From positions 1 to 24,982 of IMG/VR virus record IMGVR_UViG_3300046007_001442: 24,982 nucleotides of DNA. One strand, 5' to 3'. This document shows, one piece after another, positions 10,096-24,982 of this stretch (positions are counted from its first letter, which is position 1; each line of letters starts with the position of its first letter). The position numbers were made by a program, and so were the translations under genes. The stretch is from a virus. The notes beneath the pieces are model-generated. The model was not told the DNA's origin and did no database searches. It worked only from the letters and a program-made list of their open reading frames with translations.

Positions 10096-10105
10096 GGCTG
10101 CACTG

Positions 10106-11356
10106 ATGGCGACCACACTGGTATTCGGTGAACAGATCACGGTGCTGGCTGCGCTCGGCTTCATCGTGCGTGAGTTCACGCTGAACAGCAGCCAACTCAA
10201 CGGTGAAGATGTGCTTGATGGCACGCTCGAAGGTATCGACATCTCACCGTATGTCAAATCACTCAGCATCAACCGTGGTCGCAGCGACGAGTTCGAGTCA
10301 TTTCGTGCAGGCACATGCACGATCGTGCTCAACAATAACGATCGACGCTTCGACCCGATCAACGACGCATCACCATACTGGGATACGACGACAGGCAAGA
10401 GTGGTGTGACACCACGACGCAGAGTGCAGATCATCTCAGGTGGCAGCACATCACTGTTTGTCGGTCGGATTACTGACATAGATGTGGCGTATGACTATGA
10501 CCTGAGCACGGTCACGATCACCGCATCAGATGACTTCACGCTGCTTGCTAACGCATTCACCGCAGCAGACATCACCCCATCTGTCGAACTGTCAGGCTCA
10601 CGAGTCGCAGCCATACTCGATCTGCCAGAAGTGAACTTCCCTGCTACGACTCGCAGCATCGACACTGGTGTGGCGACACTCGGCGCATTCCAAATACCTG
10701 AGAACACGAACGCTGCGAACTATCTGCAACGAGTCGCACAGTCTGAGCAGGGTCTGTTCTTCGTGCAGGCTGACGGCATACTCAGGTTCACCGATCGAGT
10801 GACCAGCGTGTTCGCAACACCTGTCACTACCTTCGCTGATGACGGCTCAGGCATCGACTATCAAGGTCTCTCAACGATCTACGGCAACGAGTTTCTCTAC
10901 AACCGTGTGCAGACACAGACCGAGACTGGCACAGTGCAGGCTGTCGATGACACTGCCAGCCAGACCGAGTTCGGGATCAGCACGCTCGCCATCACTGATC
11001 TGCTGCTTGCCAACGATGCCAGTGCTCTGACGCTGGCACAGAAACTGCTCAGCATCTATAAGCAGCCTGAGTATCGGTTTGATGATCTGGTGCTGTCGGT
11101 GTCGTCGATGAGTGCGCCGAACCGCACGCTGGTGCTCGGTCTCGACATGGGCAATGTGATTACGATCACCAGAACCTTCTCGACTGGTAGCCCTGCTCAG
11201 GTCTCAGATGACTATGCGATCGACAGCATCACACATCAGATCACCCCTGACAGGCATACGGTCACGCTCGGTCTCTACAACGCCGATCTCGTGTTCCCCT
11301 TCACCCTGAACGATGTCAAGTTCGGTGTCCTAGACGCTGATAACGCTGTCGTCTGA
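10106..11356 (+). CDS. Minor tail protein (baseplate/tail-tip type)
   Basis: I chose the ATG at 10106, ten bases after the tape measure stop; an in-frame ATG at 10052 would overlap that gene. The resulting protein has 416 residues. It carries 'DISPYVKSLSINRGRSDEFESFRAGTCTIVLNNNDRRFDP', the characteristic opening of an actinophage minor tail protein family that follows the tape measure, then 'YWDTTTGKSGVTPRRRVQII' and several beta-rich domains. The central 'ANYLQRVAQSEQGLFFVQADGILRFTDR' segment matches the same family. It is probably a structural part of the tail tip, equivalent in position to distal tail or hub proteins. Confidence 0.82.
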   Translation: MATTLVFGEQITVLAALGFIVREFTLNSSQLNGEDVLDGTLEGIDISPYVKSLSINRGRSDEFESFRAGTCTIVLNNNDRRFDPINDASPYWDTTTGKSGVTPRRRVQIISGGSTSLFVGRITDIDVAYDYDLSTVTITASDDFTLLANAFTAADITPSVELSGSRVAAILDLPEVNFPATTRSIDTGVATLGAFQIPENTNAANYLQRVAQSEQGLFFVQADGILRFTDRVTSVFATPVTTFADDGSGIDYQGLSTIYGNEFLYNRVQTQTETGTVQAVDDTASQTEFGISTLAITDLLLANDASALTLAQKLLSIYKQPEYRFDDLVLSVSSMSAPNRTLVLGLDMGNVITITRTFSTGSPAQVSDDYAIDSITHQITPDRHTVTLGLYNADLVFPFTLNDVKFGVLDADNAVV

Positions 11357-11378
11357 CCTGTTAGGCTGTCGGCTACTT

Positions 11379-11642
11379 ATGGCGATTACAGGCACGAAAC
11401 TCTGGGCGAGTGGCGATGTCGTCACTGCTGCCGATGTGAATCAGTATCTGATGCGTGGCGTGAAAGTCTTTGCGAACGCAGCAGCACGCACTGCCGCATA
11501 CGGTGGTGCTGGCGAACCTACACTGGAAACAGGCGAAGTGTCGTATCTGCTCGACACGCTGAGCATGGAAGTTTACAACGGCTCAGCATGGGTGGCGATC
11601 AGTGGCGGTGCTGATGTTCTACAAGTGCAAGTGTTCAGTTAG
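11379..11642 (+). CDS. Small minor tail protein
   Basis: This 87-residue protein begins MAITGTKLWASGDVVTAADV and continues with 'NQYLMRGVKVFANAAARTAAYG', 'GAGEPTLETGEVSYLLDT' and 'LSMEVYNGSAWV'. The pattern recurs in many phage tail regions as a short N-terminal tail-fibre attachment or spacer domain: an 'ASGDVVTAADVNQYLM' segment, then a one-strand 'VYNGSAW' element. It sits between the tail-tip protein and a row of fibre-like proteins. I infer a structural tail role, possibly as a fibre adaptor; no enzymatic motif is visible. Confidence 0.7.
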   Translation: MAITGTKLWASGDVVTAADVNQYLMRGVKVFANAAARTAAYGGAGEPTLETGEVSYLLDTLSMEVYNGSAWVAISGGADVLQVQVFS

Positions 11643-11654
11643 GAAGGAACAGAG

Positions 11655-12017
11655 ATGGCAACATACGACAAGATCGTGCTCAGCGGATCGACTGACGGAC
11701 AGGGTGTGCTCGTCGCTGCGACCGCATCAAGCGGTACAACGATTCACACTGCGTCAGCAACGACCACGACCTTCGATGAGATTTGGCTGTATGCCGTGAA
11801 CACATCTGCGTCGAGCGTGAAACTGACGATCGAGTGGGGTACGACGACTGCGCCGAACGGCAACATCGAACTGACAGTACTACCCGAAGCAGGTCTCGTA
11901 ACGGTAGTTCCCGGCTTGGTGTTGAAAGGTAATGCGACACCGCTAGTAGTTCGTGCGTTCGCTGCGACTACGAATGTGATCGTCGTTCACGGTTTCGTGA
12001 ATCGTATTTCGGCGTAG
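11655..12017 (+). CDS. Small beta-sandwich tail protein
   Basis: The 120-residue product has a strong ribosome-binding site (AGGAAGGA) ahead of its ATG. It is almost entirely beta strand by residue pattern, with Thr/Ser/Val alternation and segments such as 'TTTFDEIWLYAVNTSASSVKLTIEWGTTT' and 'GNATPLVVRAFAATTNVIVVHGFVNRIS'. Similar small proteins occur among tail-fibre genes of freshwater and marine siphoviruses, usually as uncharacterised virion proteins. There are no cysteines and no membrane segment. A virion decoration or fibre-linker role is inferred from context. Confidence 0.7.
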   Translation: MATYDKIVLSGSTDGQGVLVAATASSGTTIHTASATTTTFDEIWLYAVNTSASSVKLTIEWGTTTAPNGNIELTVLPEAGLVTVVPGLVLKGNATPLVVRAFAATTNVIVVHGFVNRISA

Positions 12018-12027
12018 GTTTCGATCT

Positions 12028-12876
12028 ATGGCTACGGCTCGCCGCCAACTCGGTTATGTGTCATCGCAGTCGTCGCAGGTTGTGCCGACGATGGCTTTCC
12101 TGAGTGTTGAGTATTTGCTTGTCGGTGGCGGTGGTGCTGGTGGATACGGCGGTGCGGCATCTGACGGCGGCGGTGGTGGTGGTGCAGGTGGTTTCGTCAC
12201 AGGCTCAGGCATAATCGGCAAGACGACCTACACAGTCAAGGTTGGTGCTGGTGGTTCAACTATCACAGTTGGAACAGATGTTCCAAAGAACGGAACCGCA
12301 TCATCATTCATCGGTTCTGCCAACGGTGGCGGTGGTGGTGGAAGCCGTGATGGTAATGGAAATGTCGGTGGCTCTGCTGGTGGTCGTGGCTCTGACTCTG
12401 TTGCCGCTGTTGCAACAGGTGTGTCAGGTGAGGGTAATAATGGTGGATTATCAACAGGCAACGCTGGCGGCGGCGGTGGTGGTGCTGGTTCTGTTGGTGC
12501 TGATGCATCAGGCACAACAGGTGGTGCTGGTGGAACGGCATCAACTAACAACTACACAGGTTCTTCGATCTCTTATTCTGGTGGCGGTGGTGGTGGCGGT
12601 GCTACTGGTGGCACTGCTGGAACAAATGCAGGAAACGGTGGAAGCAATGTCGCTGGAAGTAATGCGACAGCGAATCGTGGCGGTGGTGGTGGCGGCGGCG
12701 GTGCAGCGAACTTCGGCGGTAATGGTGGTTCGGGTCGTGTTGTCGTTCGGTGGCTCACCGCAGAAGCAGCAGGCGCAGGTCTTACTTTCTCAACGACAGG
12801 CACGACGACGAACGGAACTGACGGTTCTTACACTTGGTATGCGTGGGATTCCACAGGAACTTTGGTGGTGGCGTAA
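12028..12876 (+). CDS. Glycine-rich tail adhesin 1
   Basis: The 282-residue protein begins with a short 'LGYVSSQSSQVVPTM' leader and then a 'VEYLLVGGGGAGGYGG' segment typical of polyglycine receptor-binding domains. Long Gly runs (up to about eight) alternate with short Ser/Asn/Thr loops to about residue 240, where the domain closes with 'GSGRVVVRWL'. Such domains are known from phage adhesins and form a polyglycine sandwich whose loops bind the host surface. A final extension of about 40 residues ending in 'WYAWDSTGTLVVA' is missing from the second copy downstream. The next gene starts within the stop (TAATG). Variable loops make this a likely host-range determinant. Confidence 0.8.
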   Translation: MATARRQLGYVSSQSSQVVPTMAFLSVEYLLVGGGGAGGYGGAASDGGGGGGAGGFVTGSGIIGKTTYTVKVGAGGSTITVGTDVPKNGTASSFIGSANGGGGGGSRDGNGNVGGSAGGRGSDSVAAVATGVSGEGNNGGLSTGNAGGGGGGAGSVGADASGTTGGAGGTASTNNYTGSSISYSGGGGGGGATGGTAGTNAGNGGSNVAGSNATANRGGGGGGGGAANFGGNGGSGRVVVRWLTAEAAGAGLTFSTTGTTTNGTDGSYTWYAWDSTGTLVVA

Positions 12877-13121
12877 TGGCACACTTCGCAAAGATCGAGA
12901 ACGGTGTGGTGCGTGAGGTGATCGTCGTCGGTAATGATGATGCGCCGACAGAAGCCGCAGGCAAACAGTTCATCGCATCTATCGGTCTTGCTGGTGAGTG
13001 GGTGCAGACTTCGTACAATGCGAATCCGATCGAAGGTGCTGATCGTGGGAAGTTCGCTGGTATCGGTGACATTTGGAATGGATCGCAGTTTGTTTCGTCG
13101 TCAAGTGAGGTAGCAGAGTGA
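12876..13121 (+). CDS. Small companion protein of adhesin 1
   Basis: The ATG at 12876 overlaps the adhesin stop, giving 81 residues; the in-frame ATG at 12834 is inside the adhesin gene and unlikely. The protein begins MAHFAKIENGVVREVIVV and has a central 'GEWVQTSYNANP' and later 'RGKFAGIGDIWNGSQF'. This is a widespread small protein of aquatic phages, often beside tail fibres, with unknown function. Its pairing with an adhesin, and repetition of the same pair immediately downstream, suggest it acts with the adhesin as an assembly factor or cap. That role is inference. Confidence 0.78.
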   Translation: MAHFAKIENGVVREVIVVGNDDAPTEAAGKQFIASIGLAGEWVQTSYNANPIEGADRGKFAGIGDIWNGSQFVSSSSEVAE

Positions 13122-13969
13122 CTCGTTCATACATGGGCTATGTCTCATCGCAGACAACTAGCACTTTGCCGTTGATGACATACGGTGTTGCAACAGGTGG
13201 TAGTTCATCAACGATTACGGTTGGTGGTGAGTCGTACACGCTGCTGACTTTTACCAGTGACTCAACTCTGACGGTTACTAAGAGTGGACTTTTCGATGTT
13301 CTGTTGATTGGTGGCGGCGGTGGCGGAAATCTCAACACTGGTGTGTCAAGGTCTTGGGGTGGCGGTGGTGGTGGTCAAGTTATTGGTTGGACTTCAATAG
13401 TGACGATGTATCTTTCGGCTGGCAGTGTTTCTGTTGATGTTGGTGCTGGTGGTGCGCAGTCAGCAAACGGTCTCCCAACAAACTTCGGCACATTGCTGAC
13501 AGCGTGCGGTGGTGGTAGAGAGAGTTCGGCTACTGAGTTTGATAGCACTTCTCGTCCTTACGGTTCTGGTGGCGGTGGGTCAAATGGTCAAATAGGAATC
13601 GATACATTGGGAACGGTCAATGTGAACAATGGCGGTGATGCTGACTCAGGATTGAACGCTGCTGGTGGCGGCGGCGGTGCTGCTGGTGCAGGTGGCAACA
13701 AAGTAAGTGCAACCGCTGGCGGTGCTGGCGGTAATGGTCTTGACATTTCAGGATTTATCGGCGGTGCAACCTACTATGCAGGTGCAGGCGGCGGTGGCGG
13801 CGGGTCAGTAACAGGTGGCGCAGCAGGTAACGGTGGCGTGGCTGGCAAGACAAGCGGTAATGCAAACAATGGCGTGAACTACGGTGCTGGTGGTGGTGGT
13901 TCCCACGGCAGCAGCCTGACAGGTGGTGCTGGTGCTGCTGGTGCAATCTTCGTAAGGTTCAAGGTATGA
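13118..13969 (+). CDS. Glycine-rich tail adhesin 2
   Basis: The 283-residue protein starts at GTG 13118, overlapping the upstream TGA; an ATG at 13133 is possible, but the GTG start aligns with the first adhesin, since both have a few residues before 'GYVSSQ'. After 'LTVTKSGLFDVLLIGGGGGG' comes an extended glycine-rich region with polyGly runs and variable Asn/Ser/Thr loops, closing with 'GAAGAIFVRFKV'. It looks like a paralogue of the first adhesin with diverged loops and without the C-terminal extension. Its own N-terminal 'TITVGGESYTLLTF' strand pair is a fuller version of the domain start. The likely role is receptor binding at the tail tip. Confidence 0.8.
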   Translation: MTRSYMGYVSSQTTSTLPLMTYGVATGGSSSTITVGGESYTLLTFTSDSTLTVTKSGLFDVLLIGGGGGGNLNTGVSRSWGGGGGGQVIGWTSIVTMYLSAGSVSVDVGAGGAQSANGLPTNFGTLLTACGGGRESSATEFDSTSRPYGSGGGGSNGQIGIDTLGTVNVNNGGDADSGLNAAGGGGGAAGAGGNKVSATAGGAGGNGLDISGFIGGATYYAGAGGGGGGSVTGGAAGNGGVAGKTSGNANNGVNYGAGGGGSHGSSLTGGAGAAGAIFVRFKV

Positions 13970-17184: not shown

Positions 17185-17391
17185 TCAGCGCAAGCGTGGG
17201 TGAAGTGAACCGCAGGCGCAGTGCGTGTCGCTGGCTGGAATCTCTGTGGCGCATGACCAGCAGTGTGCTGCTCGGCGTAGTCGCTGTGTGCGTGGCTTTA
17301 TTCCTGTGTCGTGTTGCTGCACGACATGGGTGAGATGGTCGGTGATGTTCTGGAACTGTTCACCGCAGTGAGCGCAGATGCGTGTCGTCAT
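17185..17391 (-). CDS. Small double zinc-finger protein
   Basis: On the minus strand I start at the ATG at 17391, one base after the upstream gene's stop; an ATG at 17406 is possible but overlaps. The 68-residue protein has two Cys/His clusters: C6-x2-C9-x12-H22-x4-H27 with Phe13, close to a C2H2 finger, and C44-x2-C47-x10-C58-x-C60, a zinc-ribbon-like set. The linker is basic (KPRTQRLRR). Nucleic acid or protein binding is likely, so a regulator or host-takeover factor is plausible. It is the last gene of a three-gene leftward operon. Confidence 0.65.
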   Translation of the reverse strand: MTTRICAHCGEQFQNITDHLTHVVQQHDTGIKPRTQRLRRAAHCWSCATEIPASDTHCACGSLHPRLR

Positions 17392-17404
17392 CTCATGCAC
17401 CTGC
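17386..17404 (-). promoter_or_regulatory. Stop/start coupling element, copy 1
   Basis: Minus-strand GCAGGTGCATGAGATGACG carries an SD-like GCAGGTG, the stop of the upstream gene (TGA) and, one base later, the ATG of the zinc-finger gene. Nearly identical elements recur at 17585-17603, 23968-23986 and 24753-24769. Confidence 0.65.
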
Positions 17405-17590
17405 ATCGTCTGCGAGTTCTTGCAGCCACTTCGCTAGACATTGCTCTGCGAGTGCTGATGTCTTGTGGCTGTGTGCGCAGCAGGTGACTGTTCCATCTGA
17501 CCATGTGATGCGTGCACCGTACTTGGCATTTGATGACCATGATGGGCGCACATAGGTGTCGCTGCTGATGATGATTTGCTGACTCGTCAT
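17393..17590 (-). CDS. Hypothetical small protein of the leftward early operon
   Basis: The ATG at 17590 sits one base after the upstream stop and behind a GCAGGTG ribosome-binding site, so I prefer it over the in-frame ATG at 17626. The 65-residue product begins MTSQQIIISSDTYVRPS, then has beta-like 'YGARITWSDGTVTCCAHSHKT' and a C-terminal helix 'SALAEQCLAKWLQELADDAGA'. Cys-Cys-Ala-His-Ser-His could bind metal, but there is too little to call a finger. No family is recognised. The C-terminal Ala-Gly-Ala is encoded by the coupling element for the next gene. Confidence 0.6.
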   Translation of the reverse strand: MTSQQIIISSDTYVRPSWSSNAKYGARITWSDGTVTCCAHSHKTSALAEQCLAKWLQELADDAGA

Positions 17591-17603
17591 GTCATGCACC
17601 TGC
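17585..17603 (-). promoter_or_regulatory. Stop/start coupling element, copy 2
   Basis: Minus-strand GCAGGTGCATGACATGACG joins the stop of the 97-residue gene to the ATG at 17590. It matches the plus-strand copy at 23968-23986 at 18 of 19 bases. Confidence 0.7.
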
Positions 17604-17885
17604 CTTAGTAATCTGCTGCCACTCAATGTCTGTCAGTGAGTTGATGACTGAGAGCAGGTGCTGCTTTGCATCTCGCTGGTACTCAAACACTTCGACGACT
17701 TCGTTCTTGGTCTCATTCCAGATGATCCAGTCGAAGTGTGGTGCGGTCGGCTTCATGCAGATGCCGTTGCTAATCCACTTCTTGTGCAGCGTGTCGCACA
17801 TTGGGTGCTGGCAGTCGTAGTCAAGTTCCAGTTCACGCTTCTCGATGATGTAGCAAGTCTGCTGGCTGATCTTTCGTGTGTTCAT
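17592..17885 (-). CDS. Hypothetical first gene of the leftward early operon
   Basis: I place the start at the ATG at 17885, which follows a strong ribosome-binding site (GAAGGGAACA); the in-frame ATG at 17909 lies about where transcription should begin. The 97-residue protein starts MNTRKISQQTCYIIEKREL and has four Cys (including 'CQHPMC' and 'GIC') that might bind metal, then 'FDWIIWNETKNEVVEVFEY' beta strands and a C-terminal helix 'AKQHLLSVINSLTDIEWQQ', ending KAGA. The tail resembles the ARKQLLALIN...KAGA end of the gene at 23671-23979. The function is unknown. The gene looks more A+T-rich than neighbouring late genes. Confidence 0.68.
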   Translation of the reverse strand: MNTRKISQQTCYIIEKRELELDYDCQHPMCDTLHKKWISNGICMKPTAPHFDWIIWNETKNEVVEVFEYQRDAKQHLLSVINSLTDIEWQQITKAGA

Positions 17886-17915
17886 GTGTGTTCCCTTCTC
17901 TGTGGTCATGTGTCC

Positions 17916-17967
17916 ATCTTAGCACATCTGGCTAACTGTGTCCAGTTATCCAGATAGCCAGTAATAA
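17916..17967. promoter_or_regulatory. Divergent early promoter with 30-bp operator-like dyad
   Basis: ATCTGGCTAACTG (17926-17938) and CAGTTATCCAGAT (17943-17955) form an inverted repeat with 12 of 13 matching positions and a 4-base spacer. On the minus strand, TGGACA (17944-17939) and TAAGAT (17921-17916), 17 bases apart with a preceding TGC, form a good extended -10 promoter for the leftward operon. On the plus strand, a TAATAA at 17962-17967 lies 17 bases from the same hexamer read as TGTCCA, a poor -35, and could serve the 18046 operon. A further TATCTGG half-site follows at 17974-17980. A regulator binding the dyad would cover both promoters. Confidence 0.62.
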
Positions 17968-18045
17968 TAGGGGTATCTGGCAGTCTGACTATGTGACACC
18001 CCTGCGTCAGCATGTGTCTCACCACCACACGAAAGAGAGCCACAC

Positions 18046-19011
18046 ATGACCACACAACTACGCACGATTACGAAGCCGCCACACGGCTCACTCGAATGGC
18101 TGCAACGACGACACCGTGATCATCTCGGTCGCTGCGTACTCGGCGCATCTGATGCACCAGCGATGCTGAATCAGTCACCGTTCACCAGTCGTGCCGATCT
18201 GTTTCACAGCAAGCGCACGACACCACGCATCACAGAGAGCAGCGCAGCGATGCAAGTCGGCAACATTCTCGAACCTGCACTGGTCTCAGAACTTGGTCGC
18301 AGACTCGGCGTGCAGATGCGCACACCAGAAGAGATGTATCAGCGTGATCGCTTCATCGTCTCACTCGACGCACTCTCAGATGACACGCAGATAATCGTCG
18401 GTGAAGTCAAGACGACACGACGACATCGCATCAGCGACATCGGTGATGTTCCACCTGATTACTTCTGGCAGTGCTGGGCGCAGATGCTCACACTCGACGC
18501 ACCAGTGTGGCTGATCGTGCTCGACAAAGACATGAGCATCAGCACACATGAGATACCACGCAACGAAGAAGCACTGGATCGTCTGCGCATCGAGTCAGAG
18601 AAGTTCTGCAACGCAGTGGACATGAACATGAACGACGAACTGTGGCTGCTGAAAGATGAGATGAGTGCAGAGCAGATTGCTGCGATGTATCAGCCACCGA
18701 AGCCTGTTGAGCAGGTCATCACTGATGAGCAGTACGCATGGATCAGAGAACTTGCTGACGCACGAGACTTGAAACGGCAAGCAGAACAGATCGAGCAAGC
18801 AGCGAAGGATCACATCGCACGCTTCATGCTTGACTCAGAGATCGCAACACATAACGGCACGAAGGTTCTCACATGGCGTGAGCAGGCTGGTCGTGCATCG
18901 CTAGATGTTGCGAGACTGCGAGAAGCGCACCCTGAACTTGTCGCAGAGTTCACATCACAGGGATCACCGAGCCGTGTCATGCGGCTCTCAAACACAAAGG
19001 GGAATCAGTAA
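18046..19011 (+). CDS. YqaJ-type viral recombinase/exonuclease
   Basis: The 321-residue protein has the nuclease fold and motifs of lambda-exonuclease/YqaJ proteins in its first 190 residues: 'LGASDAPAML', GNILEP (E76), 'FIVSLDAL' (D108), GEVKTT (E120, K122) and 'YFWQCWAQML' (Q142, Q146). D108 and E120-x-K122 are the PD-(D/E)XK catalytic set. These enzymes chew 5' ends of double-stranded DNA and hand the single strand to an annealing protein. The C-terminal part (about residues 220-321) is a helical segment plus strands typical of actinophage members. The start has a GAAAGAGAG ribosome-binding site. It leads the rightward DNA-metabolism operon and overlaps the next gene by one base. Confidence 0.88.
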   Translation: MTTQLRTITKPPHGSLEWLQRRHRDHLGRCVLGASDAPAMLNQSPFTSRADLFHSKRTTPRITESSAAMQVGNILEPALVSELGRRLGVQMRTPEEMYQRDRFIVSLDALSDDTQIIVGEVKTTRRHRISDIGDVPPDYFWQCWAQMLTLDAPVWLIVLDKDMSISTHEIPRNEEALDRLRIESEKFCNAVDMNMNDELWLLKDEMSAEQIAAMYQPPKPVEQVITDEQYAWIRELADARDLKRQAEQIEQAAKDHIARFMLDSEIATHNGTKVLTWREQAGRASLDVARLREAHPELVAEFTSQGSPSRVMRLSNTKGNQ

Positions 19012-19655
19012 TGTCATTCGATCTCAGCAACTATGTCGATGTGCCGACACGCATCAGACAACTCAGAGAGAAGCACCCTGATGCGGTGCTGCGACCAGCA
19101 AACCCTGCCGAGCCGTTCCGCATCATGACGATCGGCAACCGAGAGTTCATCGTCTATACGGCTGCGTGCTATCGCACACCAGATGATCCGATGCCTGCAA
19201 TCGCTGTCGCAGCAGAACCTGTCATCGGGTCGTCGGCATTCACACGGAACAGTGAAGTGATGAACGCCGAGACATCGGCTTGGGGCAGGGCGATCATGGC
19301 TGCTCTCGCAGTCGATGAGCCGCAGATCGCCAGCCGTGAAGAAGTGCAGAACCGTCGCCATGACGAAAGCACTCAGCGACTCGTCGAGCAGACGGTGCGT
19401 GAAGTGTTCCCTGAGTCGCACATCAGTGAGCAGCCGCCGCACCCTGCTGAGCAGCCTGACGGTGCTCGCAGGCTGGCAGCCGTCGCATCACAGAAGCAGG
19501 TGAACCTGATCAAGAAACTCTGCCGAGAGCAGAACATCACCGAGATCAGTCAGCACGCCAGCACAGTGATCGGTCGCACCGTCGAGTCAGTGAACTCGCT
19601 GACGACGAAGGAAGCGTCACGAGTCATCGAGTCGTTGATGAACTCAGGCAACTGA
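19011..19655 (+). CDS. Single-strand annealing / ssDNA-binding-like protein (ERF-like)
   Basis: The 214-residue protein starts in the stop of the exonuclease gene (TAATG). Residues 1-100 have 'YVDVPTRIRQLREKHPDAVLRP', 'REFIVYTAACYRTPDDPMP' and the signature NAETSAWGRA (residues 85-94), matching a family that accompanies YqaJ nucleases in actinophages and is similar to ERF-type annealing proteins. A low-complexity Pro/Glu/Gln linker (about 130-150) leads to a C-terminal helical domain 'ASQKQVNLIKKLCREQN...LTTKEASRVIESL', a small domain common in phage recombination and ssDNA-binding proteins. The pair would form a two-component recombination system. The exact family assignment is uncertain. 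Confidence 0.72.
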   Translation: MSFDLSNYVDVPTRIRQLREKHPDAVLRPANPAEPFRIMTIGNREFIVYTAACYRTPDDPMPAIAVAAEPVIGSSAFTRNSEVMNAETSAWGRAIMAALAVDEPQIASREEVQNRRHDESTQRLVEQTVREVFPESHISEQPPHPAEQPDGARRLAAVASQKQVNLIKKLCREQNITEISQHASTVIGRTVESVNSLTTKEASRVIESLMNSGN

Positions 19656-20128
19656 TGGGCTATCGAGAGTATGAGTCTGCTGCCAGCCTGCTGAAAGAAA
19701 CGCAGGCTGCGCAGCGACTCGCACGACACTGGCGTGGGGTGATCATTCCTGCTGAGCAGTACGAGCCTTACGATCGGGTCATGGTGGATCGTGACGGCAG
19801 CACTGCCGCCTTGGTCGAGATCAAGGTGCGCAACTACGACATGGACTATCTGATCACGCATCACTATCTGCTCAGTCTGAGCAAGGTGAAGTCGCTGAAC
19901 GCTGCTGCGAAACGCCGCAGCGCAGTACCGCTAGTGATGGTGGTCTGTGCTGATGCCGACTTCCTGCTCGATCTGCGTGACGAGACAGGCACCAGTCTGC
20001 GACGGCTTCCACTGAATGACCGTCACTTTGACGATCGCACTGGCGAGACTCAGATGCGGTACGAGTGGCTGATGACATTCGCTGGCGCACGATTCCTGCC
20101 GATCGACATCGTGAGCAGGCTGCTATGA
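19655..20128 (+). CDS. PD-(D/E)XK nuclease-like protein
   Basis: The 157-residue protein begins at the TGATG overlap with the upstream gene. An N-terminal helix (residues 4-25, 'REYESAASLLKETQAAQRLARHW') precedes 'EQYEPYDRVMVDRDGSTAALVEIKVRNY', where D40 and E55-x-K57 fit a PD-(D/E)XK nuclease site. Helices and strands after residue 60 (including 'LVMVVCADADFLLDLRD') complete a compact fold. Family members of this size include Holliday junction resolvases and restriction-like nucleases; its place beside the exonuclease and annealing genes favours a recombination or repair role. Activity is inferred from motif pattern alone. Confidence 0.65.
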   Translation: MGYREYESAASLLKETQAAQRLARHWRGVIIPAEQYEPYDRVMVDRDGSTAALVEIKVRNYDMDYLITHHYLLSLSKVKSLNAAAKRRSAVPLVMVVCADADFLLDLRDETGTSLRRLPLNDRHFDDRTGETQMRYEWLMTFAGARFLPIDIVSRLL

Positions 20129-20373
20129 CATGGTGGCGAGATCGGGCTGCATGTCTCGGTAAGTCTGGCGACATCTTCTTTCCGACTGAACGGAAGTTCA
20201 CAAGCAAGACATGGGCTGCTGCTCGTGCGCTGTGCGCAAACTGTCCTGTCCGTGAGCAGTGTCTAGCGACGGCTCTTGCTGTCGATGTCACCGAAGATCG
20301 CTGGGGCATGTTCGGCGGCATGACACCGAGCGAACGCAGGTATCACCGACGCAAACTGGCAAAGGAAGCATGA
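20125..20373 (+). CDS. whiB: WhiB-family Fe-S transcription factor
   Basis: The 82-residue protein starts at ATG 20125, overlapping the previous stop; a longer in-frame start at 20065 is unlikely. Four cysteines (C10, C37, C40, C46) in the C...C-x2-C-x5-C arrangement bind a [4Fe-4S] cluster in WhiB proteins, and 'RWGMFGGMTPSERR' is the G-(V/I)-W-G-G turn with following basic region. WhiB regulators interact with the primary sigma factor and modulate transcription, and phage copies can affect host septation or superinfection. The family is restricted to Actinobacteria and their phages, so this gene fixes the host group. It overlaps the next gene by ATGA. Confidence 0.93.
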   Translation: MTWWRDRAACLGKSGDIFFPTERKFTSKTWAAARALCANCPVREQCLATALAVDVTEDRWGMFGGMTPSERRYHRRKLAKEA

Positions 20374-21185
20374 TGCAACGATTCATTTCATACGGTGGTG
20401 GAGTGCAGAGCACTGCACTTATCGTTCTTGCAGTTACGGGTCGGATTGAGACAGTAGATGCAGCACTGTTCTGCAACACAGGTGATGACTCTGAGCATCC
20501 TGACACGCTGCGATTCGTTCGGGAAGTGATGACACCTTATGCAGCGCAGCATGGTCTCCCGATACATGAACTACAACGAGTCACAAAGGGTAAGTCGCAG
20601 ACTCTCTACGGTCGGGTCATGGATCACACAGGTGGGAAGAGTGGTGACAGTCTGCAAGAGCCGCTGCCTGTGTACGGCTGGAAGGGTGCGCCGATGTCAC
20701 GAGCCTGCACAGTTGATCATAAGATTCTGGTGCTGAAACGGTGGATAAAGCAGAACTGTGAACATCTACCTGTTGAGACATTGATTGGTATCTCACTTGA
20801 TGAGATTGAAAGAGCCAAGACAGGTGCATCGGATTACGAAGTCAGGCGGTATCCGTTACTTGATTTAGGACTTTCACGAATCGACTGCGCAAAGATCATC
20901 AGCGATGCAGGCTTACCAGTGCCGCCAAAGTCATCATGCTTCTTCTGTCCGTTCCACTCGATGCTCACATGGGCAGAGTTGCGTCGTGACAGACCCGATC
21001 TGTTTGAGAAGGCTGCACAGTTAGAAGATGTCATGAATGAACGCAGAGCGCAACGAAACATGCAGCCTGTGCATCTGACCAGAAAGAAGATGCCGCTTCG
21101 TGACGCAGTAGTTGCTCAGTCAGATTCTTTATTTACAGATGATGAGATGGCAGGACAATGTGATGGTGGAGTTTGCTTCGTATGA
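20370..21185 (+). CDS. PP-loop ATPase, PAPS reductase-like (adenine nucleotide alpha-hydrolase family)
   Basis: I start at the tandem ATG 20370/20373 behind AAAGGA, overlapping the WhiB stop; an in-frame ATG at 20259 is inside WhiB. The 271-residue protein has the PP-loop-like S7-Y-G-G-G-V-Q-S14 for ATP binding, then 'FCNTGDDSEHP', 'SRACTVDHKI', 'GISLDEIERA', 'YPLLDL' and 'PPKSSCFFCPFH', with C190 and C193, plus C264 and C269 at the end. C113, C190, C193 and the tail pair could hold an Fe-S cluster. The family includes PAPS reductases, DndC and tRNA-thiolating enzymes, and is frequent in phages with unknown substrate. Hand counts of sampled 60-base lines give 42-50% G+C, lower than neighbours at about 58%. 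Confidence 0.82.
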   Translation: MMQRFISYGGGVQSTALIVLAVTGRIETVDAALFCNTGDDSEHPDTLRFVREVMTPYAAQHGLPIHELQRVTKGKSQTLYGRVMDHTGGKSGDSLQEPLPVYGWKGAPMSRACTVDHKILVLKRWIKQNCEHLPVETLIGISLDEIERAKTGASDYEVRRYPLLDLGLSRIDCAKIISDAGLPVPPKSSCFFCPFHSMLTWAELRRDRPDLFEKAAQLEDVMNERRAQRNMQPVHLTRKKMPLRDAVVAQSDSLFTDDEMAGQCDGGVCFV

Positions 21186-21505
21186 ACATCGACGATGATG
21201 ATCTGCCCGACTGGGAAGAACTAAGCATCGGTGAGCCGATGAACGACACCTACGGTGCTGTATGTGCGATGCTCACCGAGCACATGGTTGATGCTGAGCG
21301 TCTGAACAGATGGCTGCTCGGTCTGATGATTGCATCACTGCACTCGTGTGATGGTCTCGAACTGCATCTCGAAGATGCGCTCGGCACGATTCAGGTGATG
21401 AGTCATGCTGACATGGCGATCGCAGGATTCGACACGATGAACAGTCTCGTCGGTATCGTCAAGCAAGAAAGGAAGGCGAAGCGTGGCAGACGATCGCAAG
21501 GGTGA
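21182..21505 (+). CDS. Hypothetical acidic helical protein
   Basis: The ATG at 21182 overlaps the previous TGA, giving 107 residues; an in-frame ATG at 21173 is also possible. The N-terminus is very acidic (MNIDDDDLPDWEEL) and the rest predicts as helical ('AVCAMLTEHMVDAERLNRWLLGLMIASLHSC', 'DALGTIQVMSHADMAIAGFDTMNSLV'), ending in a basic tail (ERKAKRGRRSQG). There are no catalytic motifs and no membrane segment. I do not recognise a family. It overlaps the next gene by 23 bases, so it is part of the same operon as the nucleases. Confidence 0.6.
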   Translation: MNIDDDDLPDWEELSIGEPMNDTYGAVCAMLTEHMVDAERLNRWLLGLMIASLHSCDGLELHLEDALGTIQVMSHADMAIAGFDTMNSLVGIVKQERKAKRGRRSQG

Positions 21506-21947
21506 ATGTCAAGGCAACGCTGACCGCTGCACGCTCGGTGCAGCCTGCCCGAAGTTCGGGCTGCTAGGTCGTGTCTCTCGTGATGGTAAGCGCAGAGTCA
21601 AAGGCTGCGGCGATCCTGTCGCTCGTGGCAAACGCAACCGATCAAAGGGTGATAGCAAGGCTCGACGAGCACGCAAGATGCTCGGTATCGCAGGTGCGAA
21701 CACACGCCACGAAGAGTTGTGGGGTGGTGCGCTGCGTGTCGAAGTGAAGGCTGGTGCTCAGATCGAGCCGATAGCGACTCGATTCAGGGCTGCCGAAGCG
21801 CAGTCGCAGGCTCAGCGTGCGCTCGGTGATCACCGTGCGTTCGTACTCGTAGCGATGCCAGACGGTGAGAGCGATGGTCTGTGCGTGCTGCGACTATCGG
21901 ACATGAGCCAGATCATGCACCTGCTGCGAGAGACAGGTCACTTGTAG
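21483..21947 (+). CDS. Putative PD-(D/E)XK endonuclease, resolvase-like, with Cys-rich N-terminus
   Basis: The 154-residue product starts at GTG 21483. Residues 9-42 include C9, C16, C22 and C42, which may bind zinc. A basic segment 'RGKRNRSKGDSKARRARKMLG' precedes 'NTRHEELWGGALRVEVKAGAQIEPI', where E77/E78 and E87-x-K89 suggest a PD-(D/E)XK centre, similar to phage and archaeal Holliday junction resolvase-like nucleases. A later 'RAALG..FVLVAMPDGESDGLCVLRL' beta region closes the fold. By position it would process recombination or replication intermediates. Family assignment is moderate, as the Asp position is not obvious. Confidence 0.62.
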   Translation: MADDRKGECQGNADRCTLGAACPKFGLLGRVSRDGKRRVKGCGDPVARGKRNRSKGDSKARRARKMLGIAGANTRHEELWGGALRVEVKAGAQIEPIATRFRAAEAQSQAQRALGDHRAFVLVAMPDGESDGLCVLRLSDMSQIMHLLRETGHL

Positions 21948-21973
21948 ATGTTGAACGACCGAAGGGGGTCACG

Positions 21974-22768
21974 ATGAGTATCAGACTGATGACATGGGTG
22001 TGGGCAAACTCGCCGTACAGCGGCGAGCGACTGCTGCTGCATCTCGCTCTTGCCGACTTCGCTAACGATGACGGTGAGTGTTTCCCATCGCACGGAACTC
22101 TGGCTAAGAAGGCACGCTGCTCGCAAGGGTGGGTCTCGCAAACGATCAAGCAGATGATCGCAGACTCACTCATCGAGATCGTCGAGCCTGCTGGTCAGGG
22201 GCGTGGGAAGGTCGGCAGATACCGACTGCTGAAAGGTCTCACTCAGTTAGACCAAAGCGAATCGATAGGTCACACTCTGACGGCTGATAGGTCACACTCT
22301 GACCAGTCACATACCTATTTACTGAACCGTCATGAACCATCAAACACTGAACAGGACTTTGAACGGCTCTGGAAGCAGTACCCACGCAAGACAGCGAAGG
22401 GCAATGCTCGACGCTCATTCGATCGGGTCATGAAGCGCAGTGACGCACCGACCGTTGATGTGCTAATCGCTGCCGTCGAGAGATACGCAGCCCAGTTCAC
22501 CAGCGGCAAGACCGACATGAACTACTGCGCACATCTGGCGACATGGCTGAACGGTGAACGGTGGCTCGATGAGATCAAAGCGGATAAGACGCAGCAGCCA
22601 GTTGTGCAGGTACCCAATGAGATACGCACCGCTGAGAGCAGCGCAGCAGCGTTCTTTCACACCCGACGCTCGGAAAGCGAACTGCTAGATTTGTTGCAGA
22701 CCTACTCGCCTGCTGCCCGAAGCGCAGCACTCGCCGTCTATCGCACCATGAAAGCAGGCACGCAATGA
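21974..22768 (+). CDS. Winged-helix phage replication protein (replisome organiser-like)
   Basis: The ATG at 21974 has a strong ribosome-binding site (GAAGGGGG), so I prefer it to the upstream in-frame ATG at 21881. The 264-residue protein starts MSIRLMTWVWANSP and has 'LLLHLALADFANDDGECFPSHGTLAKKARCSQGWVSQTIKQMIADSLIEI', a winged helix-turn-helix typical of phage replication initiators. A variable linker (about residues 90-130) is followed by 'FERLWKQYPRKTAKGNARRSFDRV' and 'YCAHLATWLNGERWLDE', the C-terminal domain shared by these proteins. It would recruit replication machinery at the phage origin. An origin could lie within the linker-encoding part, but I see no iterons. Confidence 0.82.
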   Translation: MSIRLMTWVWANSPYSGERLLLHLALADFANDDGECFPSHGTLAKKARCSQGWVSQTIKQMIADSLIEIVEPAGQGRGKVGRYRLLKGLTQLDQSESIGHTLTADRSHSDQSHTYLLNRHEPSNTEQDFERLWKQYPRKTAKGNARRSFDRVMKRSDAPTVDVLIAAVERYAAQFTSGKTDMNYCAHLATWLNGERWLDEIKADKTQQPVVQVPNEIRTAESSAAAFFHTRRSESELLDLLQTYSPAARSAALAVYRTMKAGTQ

Positions 22769-23283
22769 ACAGATTTGCCGCCATAGTTCTGAGTCTTACC
22801 TTTTCGCTGCTCGGTGTCACCGTCGCCGAGTCATACGGTGATCGCAAGATCACCGACATACCGCCCACGACTGGTAGCACGGCGGCATCGAGCAGCACCC
22901 TTCCCAGCACCACGACTACGAGCACTGTGCCTGCACCCCCTGATGCACGATGCCCGATGTGGTGGTCACTCGCACTCAGCGTTGGCTTCACCGACGAGCA
23001 GATGCCGACACTCGATCGGATTATGTATCGGGAGAGTCGTTGCGATCCGACGCAACTGAACGCATCCGATCCGAACGGTGGCAGCATTTCGCTGACGCAG
23101 ATCAACAGGTTCTGGTGTCTGCCATCTCGCTACTATCCATCTGGCTATCTGCAATCGGTCGGTGTGCTCAATACCTGCGACGACCTGTGGCAGCCTGAGA
23201 TCAACCTGCGTGCAGCACTCGCACTCGTCGCATACAGCGAAAGCGTCGGTCTGTCATCGTGGCATCAGTGGGCATGGCTGTGA
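22765..23283 (+). CDS. Secreted lysozyme/transglycosylase-like protein
   Basis: The 172-residue protein overlaps the replication gene by ATGA. It opens with a signal peptide (MNRFAAIVLSLTFSLLGVTVA, cleavage near residue 21), then a Thr/Ser/Pro linker (about residues 33-60), then a domain of about 110 residues with 'RIMYRESRCDPTQLN', where E90 is the probable catalytic glutamate, and 'GSISLTQINRFW', as in SLT/lysozyme-like transglycosylases. Four cysteines (including C63 and C93) may form disulphides outside the cell. It would cut glycan strands of peptidoglycan. Its place in the early operon, far from the lysis cassette, is odd. Confidence 0.78.
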   Translation: MNRFAAIVLSLTFSLLGVTVAESYGDRKITDIPPTTGSTAASSSTLPSTTTTSTVPAPPDARCPMWWSLALSVGFTDEQMPTLDRIMYRESRCDPTQLNASDPNGGSISLTQINRFWCLPSRYYPSGYLQSVGVLNTCDDLWQPEINLRAALALVAYSESVGLSSWHQWAWL

Positions 23284-23363
23284 TCTGTCACCAGTGCGAT
23301 TACGGCTGCGTGTGTTGCGTCATCTGCGTCGAATGTGGTGCTGGCTGGGGGTGGCTGATCTGA
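23280..23363 (+). CDS. 27-residue Cys-rich microprotein
   Basis: A GTG at 23280 overlaps the previous TGA (GTGA) and opens a 27-codon frame to TGA at 23361-23363. The product, MICHQCDYGCVCCVICVECG then AGWGWLI, has seven cysteines at positions 3, 6, 10, 12, 13, 16 and 19, in CxxC-like spacing, plus a Trp-rich end. The density of cysteines and the coupled start suggest a real metal-binding peptide rather than chance. No family is recognised. It ends the rightward operon, and its stop codon lies in the hairpin at 23351-23383. Confidence 0.5.
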   Translation: MICHQCDYGCVCCVICVECGAGWGWLI

Positions 23364-23383
23364 GTGCTCTCAGGGGCTGCCAC
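23351..23383 (+). terminator. Compound hairpin at the end of the rightward operon
   Basis: GTGGC (23351-23355) pairs with GCCAC (23379-23383), and inside it CTGAG (23360-23364) pairs with CTCAG (23369-23373) around TGCT. The 33-base structure ends the operon just before the next promoter. There is no T-run, so termination is tentative. Confidence 0.4.
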
Positions 23384-23406
23384 AGAACTAGCACGCATCC
23401 AAATAG

Positions 23407-23464
23407 TGCCTATTTGCTAGGCAATTCGGATACTTGACACAGTTACCCAGATGGGTGCTATGCT
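23407..23464 (+). promoter_or_regulatory. Early promoter with operator-like palindrome
   Basis: TTGACA (23434-23439) and TATGCT (23459-23464), separated by 19 bases with a TGC before the -10 hexamer, form a probable promoter. The spacer contains CAGTTACCCAGAT, matching both arms of the dyad at 17926-17955. Just upstream, TGCCTA-TTTGC-TAGGCA (23407-23423) is a perfect palindrome with a five-base centre, suggesting a protein-binding site. The 19-base spacing is longer than ideal, so the exact hexamers are uncertain. Confidence 0.65.
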
Positions 23465-23471
23465 GGTCTTA

Positions 23472-23490
23472 TCGCCACAAGGGGTGGCGA
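23472..23490 (+). other. 5'-leader hairpin of the right early operon
   Basis: TCGCCAC (23472-23478) pairs with GTGGCGA (23484-23490) around an AAGGG loop. If transcription starts near 23471, the hairpin would cap the 5' end of the mRNA, about 10 bases ahead of the ribosome-binding site. It may stabilise the transcript. Confidence 0.5.
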
Positions 23491-23509
23491 GATAACGAAG
23501 GGAACAGAC

Positions 23510-23668
23510 ATGAAGGCATACGCAATCCAACGGCGCAAGAATCAAACGATCGTGCGCTACTACGGCAGCCGCAAGACTGCGCAGCGAATCGCATGGGCGA
23601 TGAATGATCTATGCGGAAACCAATCAGCGTTCCGAGTCATCTCGGTCACCACATCGGTGGGTGCATGA
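23510..23668 (+). CDS. Small basic protein, first gene of the right early operon
   Basis: The ATG at 23510 follows GAAGGGAACA, the same ribosome-binding leader used at 17885. The 52-residue protein begins MKAYAIQRRKNQTIVRYYG and is strongly basic, with a central 'SRKTAQRIAWAMND' helix and a final strand ('FRVISVTTSVGA'). Such small basic proteins are typical of early phage operons and may bind nucleic acid or a host factor; I do not recognise a family. Its stop lies within a coupling-like sequence for the next gene. Confidence 0.65.
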   Translation: MKAYAIQRRKNQTIVRYYGSRKTAQRIAWAMNDLCGNQSAFRVISVTTSVGA

Positions 23669-23670
23669 AC

Positions 23671-23979
23671 ATGAAGAAGCAATACACACTTCGCAAAGAT
23701 GGCGTAGCCATCGGTACCTTCAGCAGTCAGAGTGCAGCCATAGAAGCATCTGGTAAGTCGATCTTCACGAAGCCGACACCAGACGGTTGCAGCAAAGCAT
23801 GGAACATCGGCGATGTCTGGACAGCACTTTCAGATGCTCAAATCACCATCACCGTGAGTCGGGCAATCGGTGCAGCGACGAAGAACGAATTGGCAATTGC
23901 AGCGCATCGCATCAACACCGACAGCGATGCACGCAAACAACTGCTCGCACTCATCAACACACCGAAGGCAGGTGCGTGA
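23671..23979 (+). CDS. Hypothetical early protein
   Basis: I use the ATG at 23671, two bases after the previous stop; the ATG at 23665, overlapping that stop as ATGA, would add two residues. The 102-residue product begins MKKQYTLRKDGVAIGTFSSQ, includes 'SIFTKPTPDGCSKAWNIGDVWTALSD' and a strand-rich 'QITITVSRAIGAATKNE' segment, and ends with a helix 'ARKQLLALINTPKAGA'. The tail resembles the end of the gene at 17592-17885. No function is recognised. Its last residues are encoded by the coupling element for the next gene. Confidence 0.65.
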   Translation: MKKQYTLRKDGVAIGTFSSQSAAIEASGKSIFTKPTPDGCSKAWNIGDVWTALSDAQITITVSRAIGAATKNELAIAAHRINTDSDARKQLLALINTPKAGA

Positions 23980-23986
23980 CATGACG
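23968..23986 (+). promoter_or_regulatory. Stop/start coupling element, copy 3
   Basis: GCAGGTGCGTGACATGACG provides an SD-like GCAGGTG, the stop TGA (23977-23979) and the next ATG (23981). It matches the minus-strand copy at 17585-17603 at 18 of 19 bases. Confidence 0.7.
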
Positions 23987-24388
23987 ACATCAGCAGAGAT
24001 CGCGGCAGCGACATCAGAGATGCAGCACGCAGTCGATACCTACGGCATGCCAGTCTGGTATGTCAAGGTCAGCACAGCGAAGCAGCGCATCGTGCCACTC
24101 GAAGTGCGGCGCAGCATTCTGGCATCGGCACGACCGAGCGACGGCTGGGTGAATCAGAACGGCTGCTGGTACAAGGGCAGACTTGACGCACGAGAGACTC
24201 TGCGCCAGTGGGCTGCACAGAATGTGTATCAGGTGATGACAGTCGCCGAGATCGCATCAGCAGCAGATGTCACGCAGTCAGCAGTGCGCACGATGATCTC
24301 AGAGCGTGCCGACATCTTCCGCAAGAGCGACGGTCGCAACTACGAGATCAGAGATGCTGACGCAGACCGCAAGGCAGACAAGCGATGA
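23981..24388 (+). CDS. Putative winged-helix DNA-binding early protein
   Basis: The ATG at 23981 follows the coupling element; an in-frame ATG at 23870 is inside the upstream gene and rejected. The 135-residue protein begins MTTSAEIAAATSEMQHAVDT. Its C-terminal part (about residues 85-125) has 'YQVMTVAEIASAADVTQSAVRTMISERADIFRKSDGRNYEI', a helix-turn-helix with a following wing, typical of small DNA-binding regulators. The N-terminal part is mixed and has a 'GWVNQNGCWYKGRL' segment of unknown role. It could be the early regulator acting on the dyad, but that is speculation. Its stop overlaps the ATG at 24385. Confidence 0.65.
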   Translation: MTTSAEIAAATSEMQHAVDTYGMPVWYVKVSTAKQRIVPLEVRRSILASARPSDGWVNQNGCWYKGRLDARETLRQWAAQNVYQVMTVAEIASAADVTQSAVRTMISERADIFRKSDGRNYEIRDADADRKADKR

Positions 24389-24450
24389 CCACCATACAGA
24401 TCGCATCAGCAACCGCTGATACGAATACCACACACAAAGGGGATACACGA

Positions 24451-24762
24451 ATGACCATCAGCAAAGAACAAGAACACGCATTGGAAGTGTTGCGACTCAT
24501 CGCAGAGACAGATGATGGCAGCGATTCGCTGCGTCACGAGTTGGTGCAGATGAGCCGTGACTACACCACGGTGCGGAATCATCTGATCGCAGCCATCAGA
24601 GCACTACGCACTATCGACCGAGAGTTCGGCTATGACGAAGGCGGTCACGACGAAGTGACTGACGACCTGCGTGGAATCCTTACCACGCTGCGCTGCGAAG
24701 AGATCGCACTGCTTGAACTGTTCAGCAACATGAACGAAGCATCAGAATCGGCGCAGGTCTGA
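24451..24762 (+). CDS. Hypothetical acidic helical early protein
   Basis: I prefer the ATG at 24451, which has a strong AAAGGGGA site seven bases upstream; an in-frame ATG at 24385, overlapping the previous stop, would add 22 residues of low-complexity sequence. The 103-residue protein starts MTISKEQEHALEVLRLIAET and is almost all helix ('SLRHELVQMSRDYTTVRNHLIAAIRALRTI', 'LRGILTTLRCEEIALLELFS') with many acidic residues. No family is recognised; helical bundle or coiled-coil dimer is likely. Two possible starts might mean two products. Confidence 0.65.
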   Translation: MTISKEQEHALEVLRLIAETDDGSDSLRHELVQMSRDYTTVRNHLIAAIRALRTIDREFGYDEGGHDEVTDDLRGILTTLRCEEIALLELFSNMNEASESAQV

Positions 24763-24769
24763 CATGACG
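24753..24769 (+). promoter_or_regulatory. Stop/start coupling element, copy 4
   Basis: GCAGGTCTGACATGACG joins the stop at 24760-24762 to the ATG at 24764. Here the GCAGGT lies in a different reading frame from the other copies, and two bases are missing between GCAGGT and TGAC, so the shared sequence is not explained by a shared C-terminal peptide. Confidence 0.6.
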
Positions 24770-24982
24770 AAGAAACAGTCAGCCAGCCCAGCGACACCAC
24801 TGAACTATGTGCTACTTGATGTGCGACTCACCGTCGCAGTTGAGTCCTACTGGTGCGAAGAGCACGAAGGTGAAGCAACCGACTTCGCTATTGAGCAGGT
24901 CATCACTGCTCTCACTGATTCAGAGAGTCAAGACATCATCGTGCTCGGCAGCGACATCAGCAGACTGCGAGTGCAGTCATGA
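24764..24982 (+). CDS. Hypothetical small early protein
   Basis: The 72-residue ORF ends at TGA 24980-24982, the last bases of the window, so it is complete. It begins MTKKQSASPATPLNYVLLDV, then has a strand 'VRLTVAVESYWCEEHE' and a helix 'ATDFAIEQVITALTDS', ending in 'DIIVLGSDISRLRVQS'. No domain is recognised. The ATG at 24979 overlaps its stop and may start another coupled gene beyond the window. Confidence 0.6.
   Translation: MTKKQSASPATPLNYVLLDVRLTVAVESYWCEEHEGEATDFAIEQVITALTDSESQDIIVLGSDISRLRVQS

Follow-up and report, generated by a model that had tools for sequence, protein, structure and literature searches.

A recurrent Shine-Dalgarno/stop/start junction in the early operons of an uncultured tailed phage, and its probable role as a border for swapping small genes

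Several kinds of short sequence have been described where one gene gives way to the next. At junctions where a ribosome that ends one gene restarts on its neighbor (termination-reinitiation), Shine-Dalgarno sequences (SDs) within the upstream gene matter for reinitiation in four of five E. coli gene pairs (PMC6728339), and the last 15 nucleotides (nt) of the upstream gene suffice for it (PMC10666635). Cluster K mycobacteriophages carry the SAS and ESAS repeats, short asymmetric sequences that have an SD core and lie shortly before start codons (Pope et al. 2011, PMC3203893); SAS, with consensus GGGATAGGAGCCC, is confined to the non-structural half of the genome, precedes differing gene families, mostly where the upstream gap exceeds 50 bp, and has subcluster variants (ESAS), its function being untested (PMC3203893). 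For mosaic exchange among phages, 'boundary sequences' have been proposed, and most borders are said to lack recognizable ones (PMC3029335). Here we describe a repeated junction element, AARGCAGGTGC(R)TGA-N0-2-ATG in its fuller form, in a complete 24,982-base viral contig of a tailed phage (the window) and in its relatives. We think it probable that the element is a reused SD/stop/start junction that acts as a boundary for swapping small early genes in two operons, a reading that includes the version in which only a ribosome-binding site (RBS) is retained.

The element and its copies

An earlier note on the window, made from its letters, had placed in it three full copies of GCAGGTGC(A/G)TGA(C/G)ATGACG, a variant and a weaker copy, each holding the stop of one gene and the start of the next. 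Every coordinate of the full copies was correct, each lies at a genuine stop/start junction, and an in-frame stop and ATG were verified at each; the weaker copy near 23658 (GGTGGGTGCATGAACATG, about 23656-23673) is likewise a real junction. The full copies and the variant join the open reading frames (ORFs) 17592-17909 to 17590-17393, 17590-17393 to 17391-17185, 23671-23979 to 23981-24388, and 24385-24762 to 24764-24982. The sites are listed with their predicted pairing to the anti-SD.

17585 to 17606, minus strand: AAGGCAGGTGCATGACATGACG, exact match; ends 17592-17909 (..TKAGA-stop), holds the SD and stop, starts 17590-17393; -10.9 kcal/mol
17386 to 17404, minus strand: GCAGGTGCATGAGATGACG, exact match; ends 17590-17393 (..DDAGA-stop), starts 17391-17185; -6.4 kcal/mol
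23965 to 23986, plus strand: AAGGCAGGTGCGTGACATGACG, exact match; ends 23671-23979 (..PKAGA-stop), starts 23981-24388; -12.3 kcal/mol
24753 to 24769, plus strand: variant GCAGGTCTGACATGACG; ends 24385-24762 (..SAQV-stop), starts 24764-24982; -5.9 kcal/mol
23656 to 23673, plus strand: weak variant GGTGGGTGCATGAACATG; ends 23510-23668 (..SVGA-stop), starts 23671-23979; -8.4 kcal/mol

The sequence GCAGGTGCRTGASATGACG matches exactly at 17386-17404 (minus), 17585-17603 (minus) and 23968-23986 (plus), and no further match with three or fewer mismatches occurs in the window, where 100 dinucleotide shuffles, with three mismatches allowed, produced 0.05 matches on average and never more than 1. The looser CAGGTN{1,4}TGANATGA has four matches, adding 24754, against 0.03 expected. 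The 17386 copy is a 20-nt direct repeat, 95% identical, of the copy 199 nt away, and the similarity runs upstream past the motif first reported, with AAG or AAA before GCAGG in most copies. By itself the 7-mer GCAGGTG is not the signal, because it occurs 18 times in the window, mostly within genes. One copy lies away from any junction, GCAGGTGCATGA at 21924 (minus); it runs antisense to a gene and lacks a start codon.

All copies separate co-directed genes with a stop-to-start spacing of -1 to +2 nt, the arrangement that termination-reinitiation calls for, and the TGA-N-ATG spacing is confined in the window to element sites, bar one doubtful GTG case. In the K-A-G-A copies the SD stands at a fixed distance from the stop, but its distance from the start differs (4, 6 or 7 nt); the unit thus takes in the end of the upstream gene. 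This geometry also bears on whether the repeats could be a DNA-level operator or stoperator for a phage regulator, as asymmetric repeats in early regions on both strands might suggest. The copies, however, always stand in sense orientation at stop/start junctions, with none in intergenic or promoter regions, and the frame to the stop is kept across 4, 6 or 7 nt of spacing to the start, which makes an operator extremely improbable.

For comparison we used four uncultured viral contigs recovered through the YqaJ-type exonuclease (70-77% identity), A (L054), B (L055/L056), C (L057) and D (L058), with W denoting the window phage; coordinates of relatives are oriented so that the exonuclease is on the plus strand. 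A metallophosphatase-like protein, so named from its motifs and without a Pfam hit, led to further relatives (40 loci, several already known). These relatives are contig fragments, few and not independent, and small genes and junctions were assigned by hand. Among isolated phages none with DNA close to the window was found, the exonuclease being only 22-28% identical. The earlier note had proposed a search of related phages and had named absence from the early operons of close relatives as a result that would speak against it; the junction is present in the early operons of four of the four close relatives, A-D, in both operons, so the proposal passed this test. The element lies at these positions:

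A: 11791, 5830
B: 18150, 18340, 11991 (GCAGATGC), 11043
C: 10090, 4141
D: 9831, 14813; variant at 3187

Lineages seem to have their own dialects (GCAGGTGC, GCGAGTGC, GGCTGGTGC), and the L086 copy is GAGAGCAGGTGCGTGATGACG, of the TGATG form. A second dialect, AAAAGGYTGGTGCGTGAAYATG, is found in more distant relatives, twice each in L074 and L079 and once in L119/L122, and once in L077, a possible relative. It surfaced from a scan for the synonymous GCT form that was intended as a negative control and instead retrieved relatives of this phage. Separately, AAAGCAGGTGCG recurs at A 12787 and B 19485 in another frame, before a GTGA stop/start overlap; the downstream 51-amino-acid (aa) ORF is putative.

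Nucleotide constraint, predicted pairing and rarity

How would such a junction work? The last four codons of the upstream early gene (AAR GCA GGT GCR) would form an extended, slightly imperfect SD, AARG-C-AGGTG, facing the anti-SD CACCUCCUU; with the TGA stop two nucleotides after it and the next ATG 0-2 nt past the stop or overlapping it, a ribosome that ends the upstream gene would be in position to begin again on its neighbor. In this group a single junction serves many unrelated gene pairs in two opposite-strand early operons with similar upstream sequences, and it is probably the boundary at which small gene cassettes are replaced, inserted or moved between operons. The stop/start/SD architecture fits the earlier claim of translational coupling, which we infer from that architecture only.

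AARG(C)AGGTG is a bacterial SD with one mismatch or bulge. Compared with the perfect AAAGGAGGTG, AARGCAGGTG differs by C for G and by A/G at one site, and the C in the core may be there because the perfect form would require the rare codon GGA (5% of Gly, against 40% for GGT; GCA is 32% of Ala). The AGGTG ends 4-7 nt before the ATG, a workable SD distance within the 3' end of the upstream gene. Duplex energies were computed against an assumed common bacterial anti-SD, CACCUCCUUUCU, which may not be the host's. Pairing of -10.9 to -13.1 kcal/mol is predicted at 8 of 13 element junctions, and values of -10 or lower at 2 of 78 other coupled junctions (Mann-Whitney p about 2e-4; 5e-4 with orthologues collapsed), so that the best predicted anti-SD pairing among the coupled junctions of these phages belongs to element junctions. 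Among the 128 synonymous encodings of K-A-G-A, AAAGCAGGTGCR pairs best and AAGGCAGGTGCR is surpassed by eight.

This near-best pairing, together with uniform codons and copies in other frames, supports the earlier proposal that selection acts on the nucleotide sequence. All ten real gene ends that encode AGA-stop in the five phages use GCA GGT, and the element's letters fall in a different reading frame at W 24753, where, as had been claimed, GCAGGT gives ..S-A-Q-V-stop instead of ..A-G-A-stop, and at A 12787 and B 19485 (KQVRS-stop). Could the peptide be what is selected, a C-terminal K-A-(G/S/D)-A that tags small early proteins for, say, degradation or interaction, with the DNA likeness secondary? 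The tail does outlast DNA change, as KASA in D and L087, KADA in B, and KAGA via GCT in L119, L074, L077 and L079; its final Ala is nearly always there, and it is partly kept where SD letters differ (D 3178, L087, B 11982, L119), so the peptide may contribute. Yet in the close group the two SD codons show no synonymous variation and a start codon immediately follows every real tail copy, and the frame-shifted copies and a pairing near the synonymous optimum also speak against the peptide as what is selected, a reading that we regard as quite unlikely.

The junction between the core replication gene and a lysozyme-like gene carries AAAGCAGG in all five phages (window 22765, A 10416, B 17102, C 9074, D 8940); in the window it reads AAAGCAGGCACGC-ATGA and has letters in common with the element. 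Judged by these letters, it could possibly be an ancestor of the element or a convergent SD.

Among 2.9 million viral contigs, the strict form AAGGCAGGTGCNTGAN{0,2}ATG occurs in 15, at true stop/start junctions in 12. Ten of these 12 are other contigs, of 37-65% GC, with one copy each; this phage group has four strict copies in about 103 kb. At junctions, the synonymous GCT form is seen only in contigs of this group and in L077. The element is therefore a workable solution that others seldom reach, and its repeated use is found only in this group. The ten single-copy contigs, the 5% share of GGA and the AAAGCAGG at the core replication-lysin junction would all suit convergence, in which coupled junctions that need a strong intragenic SD drift to AARGCAGGTGCRTGA, GGA being rare and GCA GGT common, and the copies arise independently. 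Convergence accounts less well for a form found in so few contigs and yet repeated here, for letters without a pairing role that the copies have in common (GC before AGG, C after GTG), for the restriction of the GCT form at junctions, and for homology that breaks at the element; we consider it rather unlikely. A widespread mobile element was considered and rejected: the exact 19-mer has no other match, and GCAGGTGNRTGASATGAC, present in 20 contigs, lies mostly inside ORFs or has tiny upstream frames, near chance by a rough estimate.

Homology borders and gene movement

The element marks points where homology between relatives begins and points where it ends, as expected of a boundary sequence. 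Protein comparison across 25 junctions gave 20 pairs related downstream only, 8 upstream only and 2 with relatedness on either side. Over 666 nt from AAAGCAGGTG on, A 11788-12453 matches C 10087-10752 at 97.4% identity, and the preceding genes are unrelated; in W, B/C, D, L087 and L088 a zinc-ribbon-like gene follows the element or a variant and has differing upstream genes, as does the orthologue of 23981-24388 behind the element in B and D. In the other direction, L074 and L079 have upstream genes of 90% identity as far as the ATG of the element and are unrelated beyond, and for B and L086 the upstream sides are related at 88% and what follows the element is unrelated. Within the five phages, 10 of 11 element junction pairs are one-sided and one is two-sided, against 13 one-sided and 13 two-sided among 26 pairs at other early-operon junctions (Fisher p 0.03, with pairs that are not independent): the element is nearly always a boundary, though not the only one. 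Paralogy was also tried and rejected, as the 65-aa and 68-aa genes are not similar and the element-linked upstream genes of the window show no significant protein similarity to one another. The DNA upstream of W 23968 and W 17603 scored z 9.9, and blastp gave no support.

The genes concerned, with the promoter-like sites of their operons and one further regulatory gene, are:

17592 to 17909, minus strand: first gene of the minus early operon, 105 aa; Pfam Rop only below the cut-off
17393 to 17590, minus strand: small gene, 65 aa, with the element on both flanks; the D homologue is placed after, not before, the next gene
17185 to 17391, minus strand: CxxC/zinc-ribbon-like gene, 68 aa; Pfam match below the cut-off
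23510 to 23668, plus strand: first gene of the plus early operon, 52 aa
23671 to 23979, plus strand: second gene of the plus operon, 102 aa
23981 to 24388, plus strand: conserved gene, 135 aa, orthologues in A-D
24385 to 24762, plus strand: early gene, 125 aa
24764 to 24982, plus strand: early gene, 72 aa
17916 to 17944, minus strand: promoter-like site TGGACA-17-TAAGAT of the minus operon, resembling the plus-operon upstream region
23434 to 23464, plus strand: promoter-like site TTGACA..TTACCCAGATGGGTGC..TATGCT of the plus operon, from sequence comparison and missed by a consensus scan
20125 to 20373: WhiB transcription factor (Pfam 2e-19)

Operon and strand are not fixed within gene families. 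The 135-aa gene, in the plus operon of the window, is in the minus operon of L095-L097, L100, L101, L108 and L109; the 87-aa plus gene of A is on the minus strand in L091; the 68-aa gene has orthologues in B, C, D, L086-L088 and L091, and in a plus-strand position in L103, L119 and L122; and homologues of the 105-aa gene are found in the plus-strand operon of L111 (72%) and in L079 (46%). A relationship (29%, E 2e-17) also links A 11167 (plus) with D 3769 (minus), each of which terminates in EKA(G/S)A. When moved genes come first in an operon they have another type of RBS, GAAGGGAACAAGGGGAATG-like, so the junction is tied to position and not to the gene. The 105-aa homologue in L079 (5648-5340, minus) keeps the K-A-G-A end with a GCT codon, and that in L111 (7493, plus), on the opposite strand, ends ..NLGMEVK-stop. 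Among the early genes that have been exchanged are those for a DNA methyltransferase-like protein (DPPF motif) and for a HEFAHA metalloprotease-like protein (C 11156-11836; A 5817-5284 minus; motifs only). For the 102-aa gene (23671-23979) no relative was found in viral contigs.

The earlier note had called the element a plug-in junction that allows small early genes to be shuffled. Homology that ends at the element from either side and families that change operon and strand fit that description; that the element 'allows' shuffling is unproven, because a good RBS kept during ordinary mosaic evolution would leave a similar picture. Selection could indeed be all there is, with illegitimate recombination falling anywhere, survivors keeping the downstream RBS and the element having no part in recombination: 20 of 28 one-sided pairs share the downstream side, and mosaic boundaries occur at non-element junctions as well. 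Breaks that share the upstream side (L074/L079, B/L086, A/D/L119) and reuse before unrelated genes would then require copying or convergence, and the 65-aa gene, set between two near-identical 20-nt repeats, looks like a cassette; we hold selection alone to be possible, short of probable. An equally tentative version makes the junction a homology socket, common to the two opposite-strand operons with their similar promoter-like sequences and with its copies kept alike within each lineage, at which the phage's own annealing recombinase would add, take out or relocate small genes so that they arrive in frame and coupled. The window encodes a protein with only a weak RecT-like match besides the YqaJ exonuclease, and a role for the element as homology for exchange is plausible. 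The repeats, their positions, the constraint, the strength of the predicted pairing and the one-sided homology are observed, whereas coupling in vivo and recombination through the element's homology are what we infer from them.

Several observations weigh against a reused junction that serves as a boundary. No copy lies in the examined contig stretches of several relatives (L091, L095-L118); AAAGCGAGTGC (D, L087) and AAGGCTGGTGC (L119, L074, L079, L077) are without the AGGTG core and retain K-A-(G/S)-A; predicted pairing is weak in about a third of the copies (W 17404, -6.4; W 24753, -5.9; B 11991, -6.4; D 9831, -6.9); and other early junctions are mosaic boundaries too, with 13 one-sided pairs.

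The sequences upstream of the two opposite-strand operons are alike in W and A-D (TTGACA..AGTTAGCCAGATG..TGCTATGAT-like, also TTGACA..AGTTAgCCAGATG..TGCTATGAT-like) and perhaps represent a common operator; a consensus promoter scan did not, taken as a whole, score more hits than it did in shuffles. The ATG at 17909 lies just past the -10, a second in-frame ATG at 17885 stands behind GAAGGGAACACAC, and the minus operon may be leaderless. A second recurrent RBS-type sequence, CACACAAAGGGGATACAC(xx)ATG, is found ahead of early genes that lead an operon or are not coupled, and it coincides with homology breaks (window 24431-24452; A about 12490-12518; C 9798-9826 and 11806-11833; D 9655-9675). Besides the exonuclease and WhiB, the window encodes a portal-like protein and a replication initiation protein. 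WhiB presumably points to an actinobacterial host; directly after its gene lies one that by eye is PAPS-reductase-like (20373-21185). Two adjoining glycine-rich tail-like proteins (12028-12876 and 13118-13969) have similar starts, MGYVSSQ and LGYVSSQ.

Relation to known junctions and repeats

The junctions of these phages make up a natural series: their border sequence can be named, its function is plausible and the gene on either side has been replaced. They bear on the old question of phage mosaicism, and two claims become testable with them. One is that junctions with an RBS guide gene exchange or filter it; the other is that small genes, once acquired, can be expressed immediately thanks to a fixed junction.

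Like the termination-reinitiation junctions already described (PMC6728339, PMC10666635), the element has its SD within the final codons of the preceding gene and its stop and start a few nucleotides apart, and its length is about the 15 nt that suffice in PMC10666635. Those junctions, however, are pair-specific and typically ATGA or TGATG overlaps, whereas here one repeat serves many pairs and TGA-N-ATG prevails. As with SAS, the element is found in the non-structural region, beside the starts of genes from different families; unlike SAS, it lies inside the end of the upstream gene, includes that gene's stop codon and has swaps at its edges. Its letters, AARGCAGGTGCR, do not match the SAS consensus GGGATAGGAGCCC with up to two mismatches, the common part being the AGG core only. 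With boundary sequences it has in common a short conserved sequence where exchanged modules meet, and it differs from them in that the border sequence is recognizable and carries an RBS and a stop/start. The element thus combines a SAS-like start repeat with a boundary sequence, and the combination is new.

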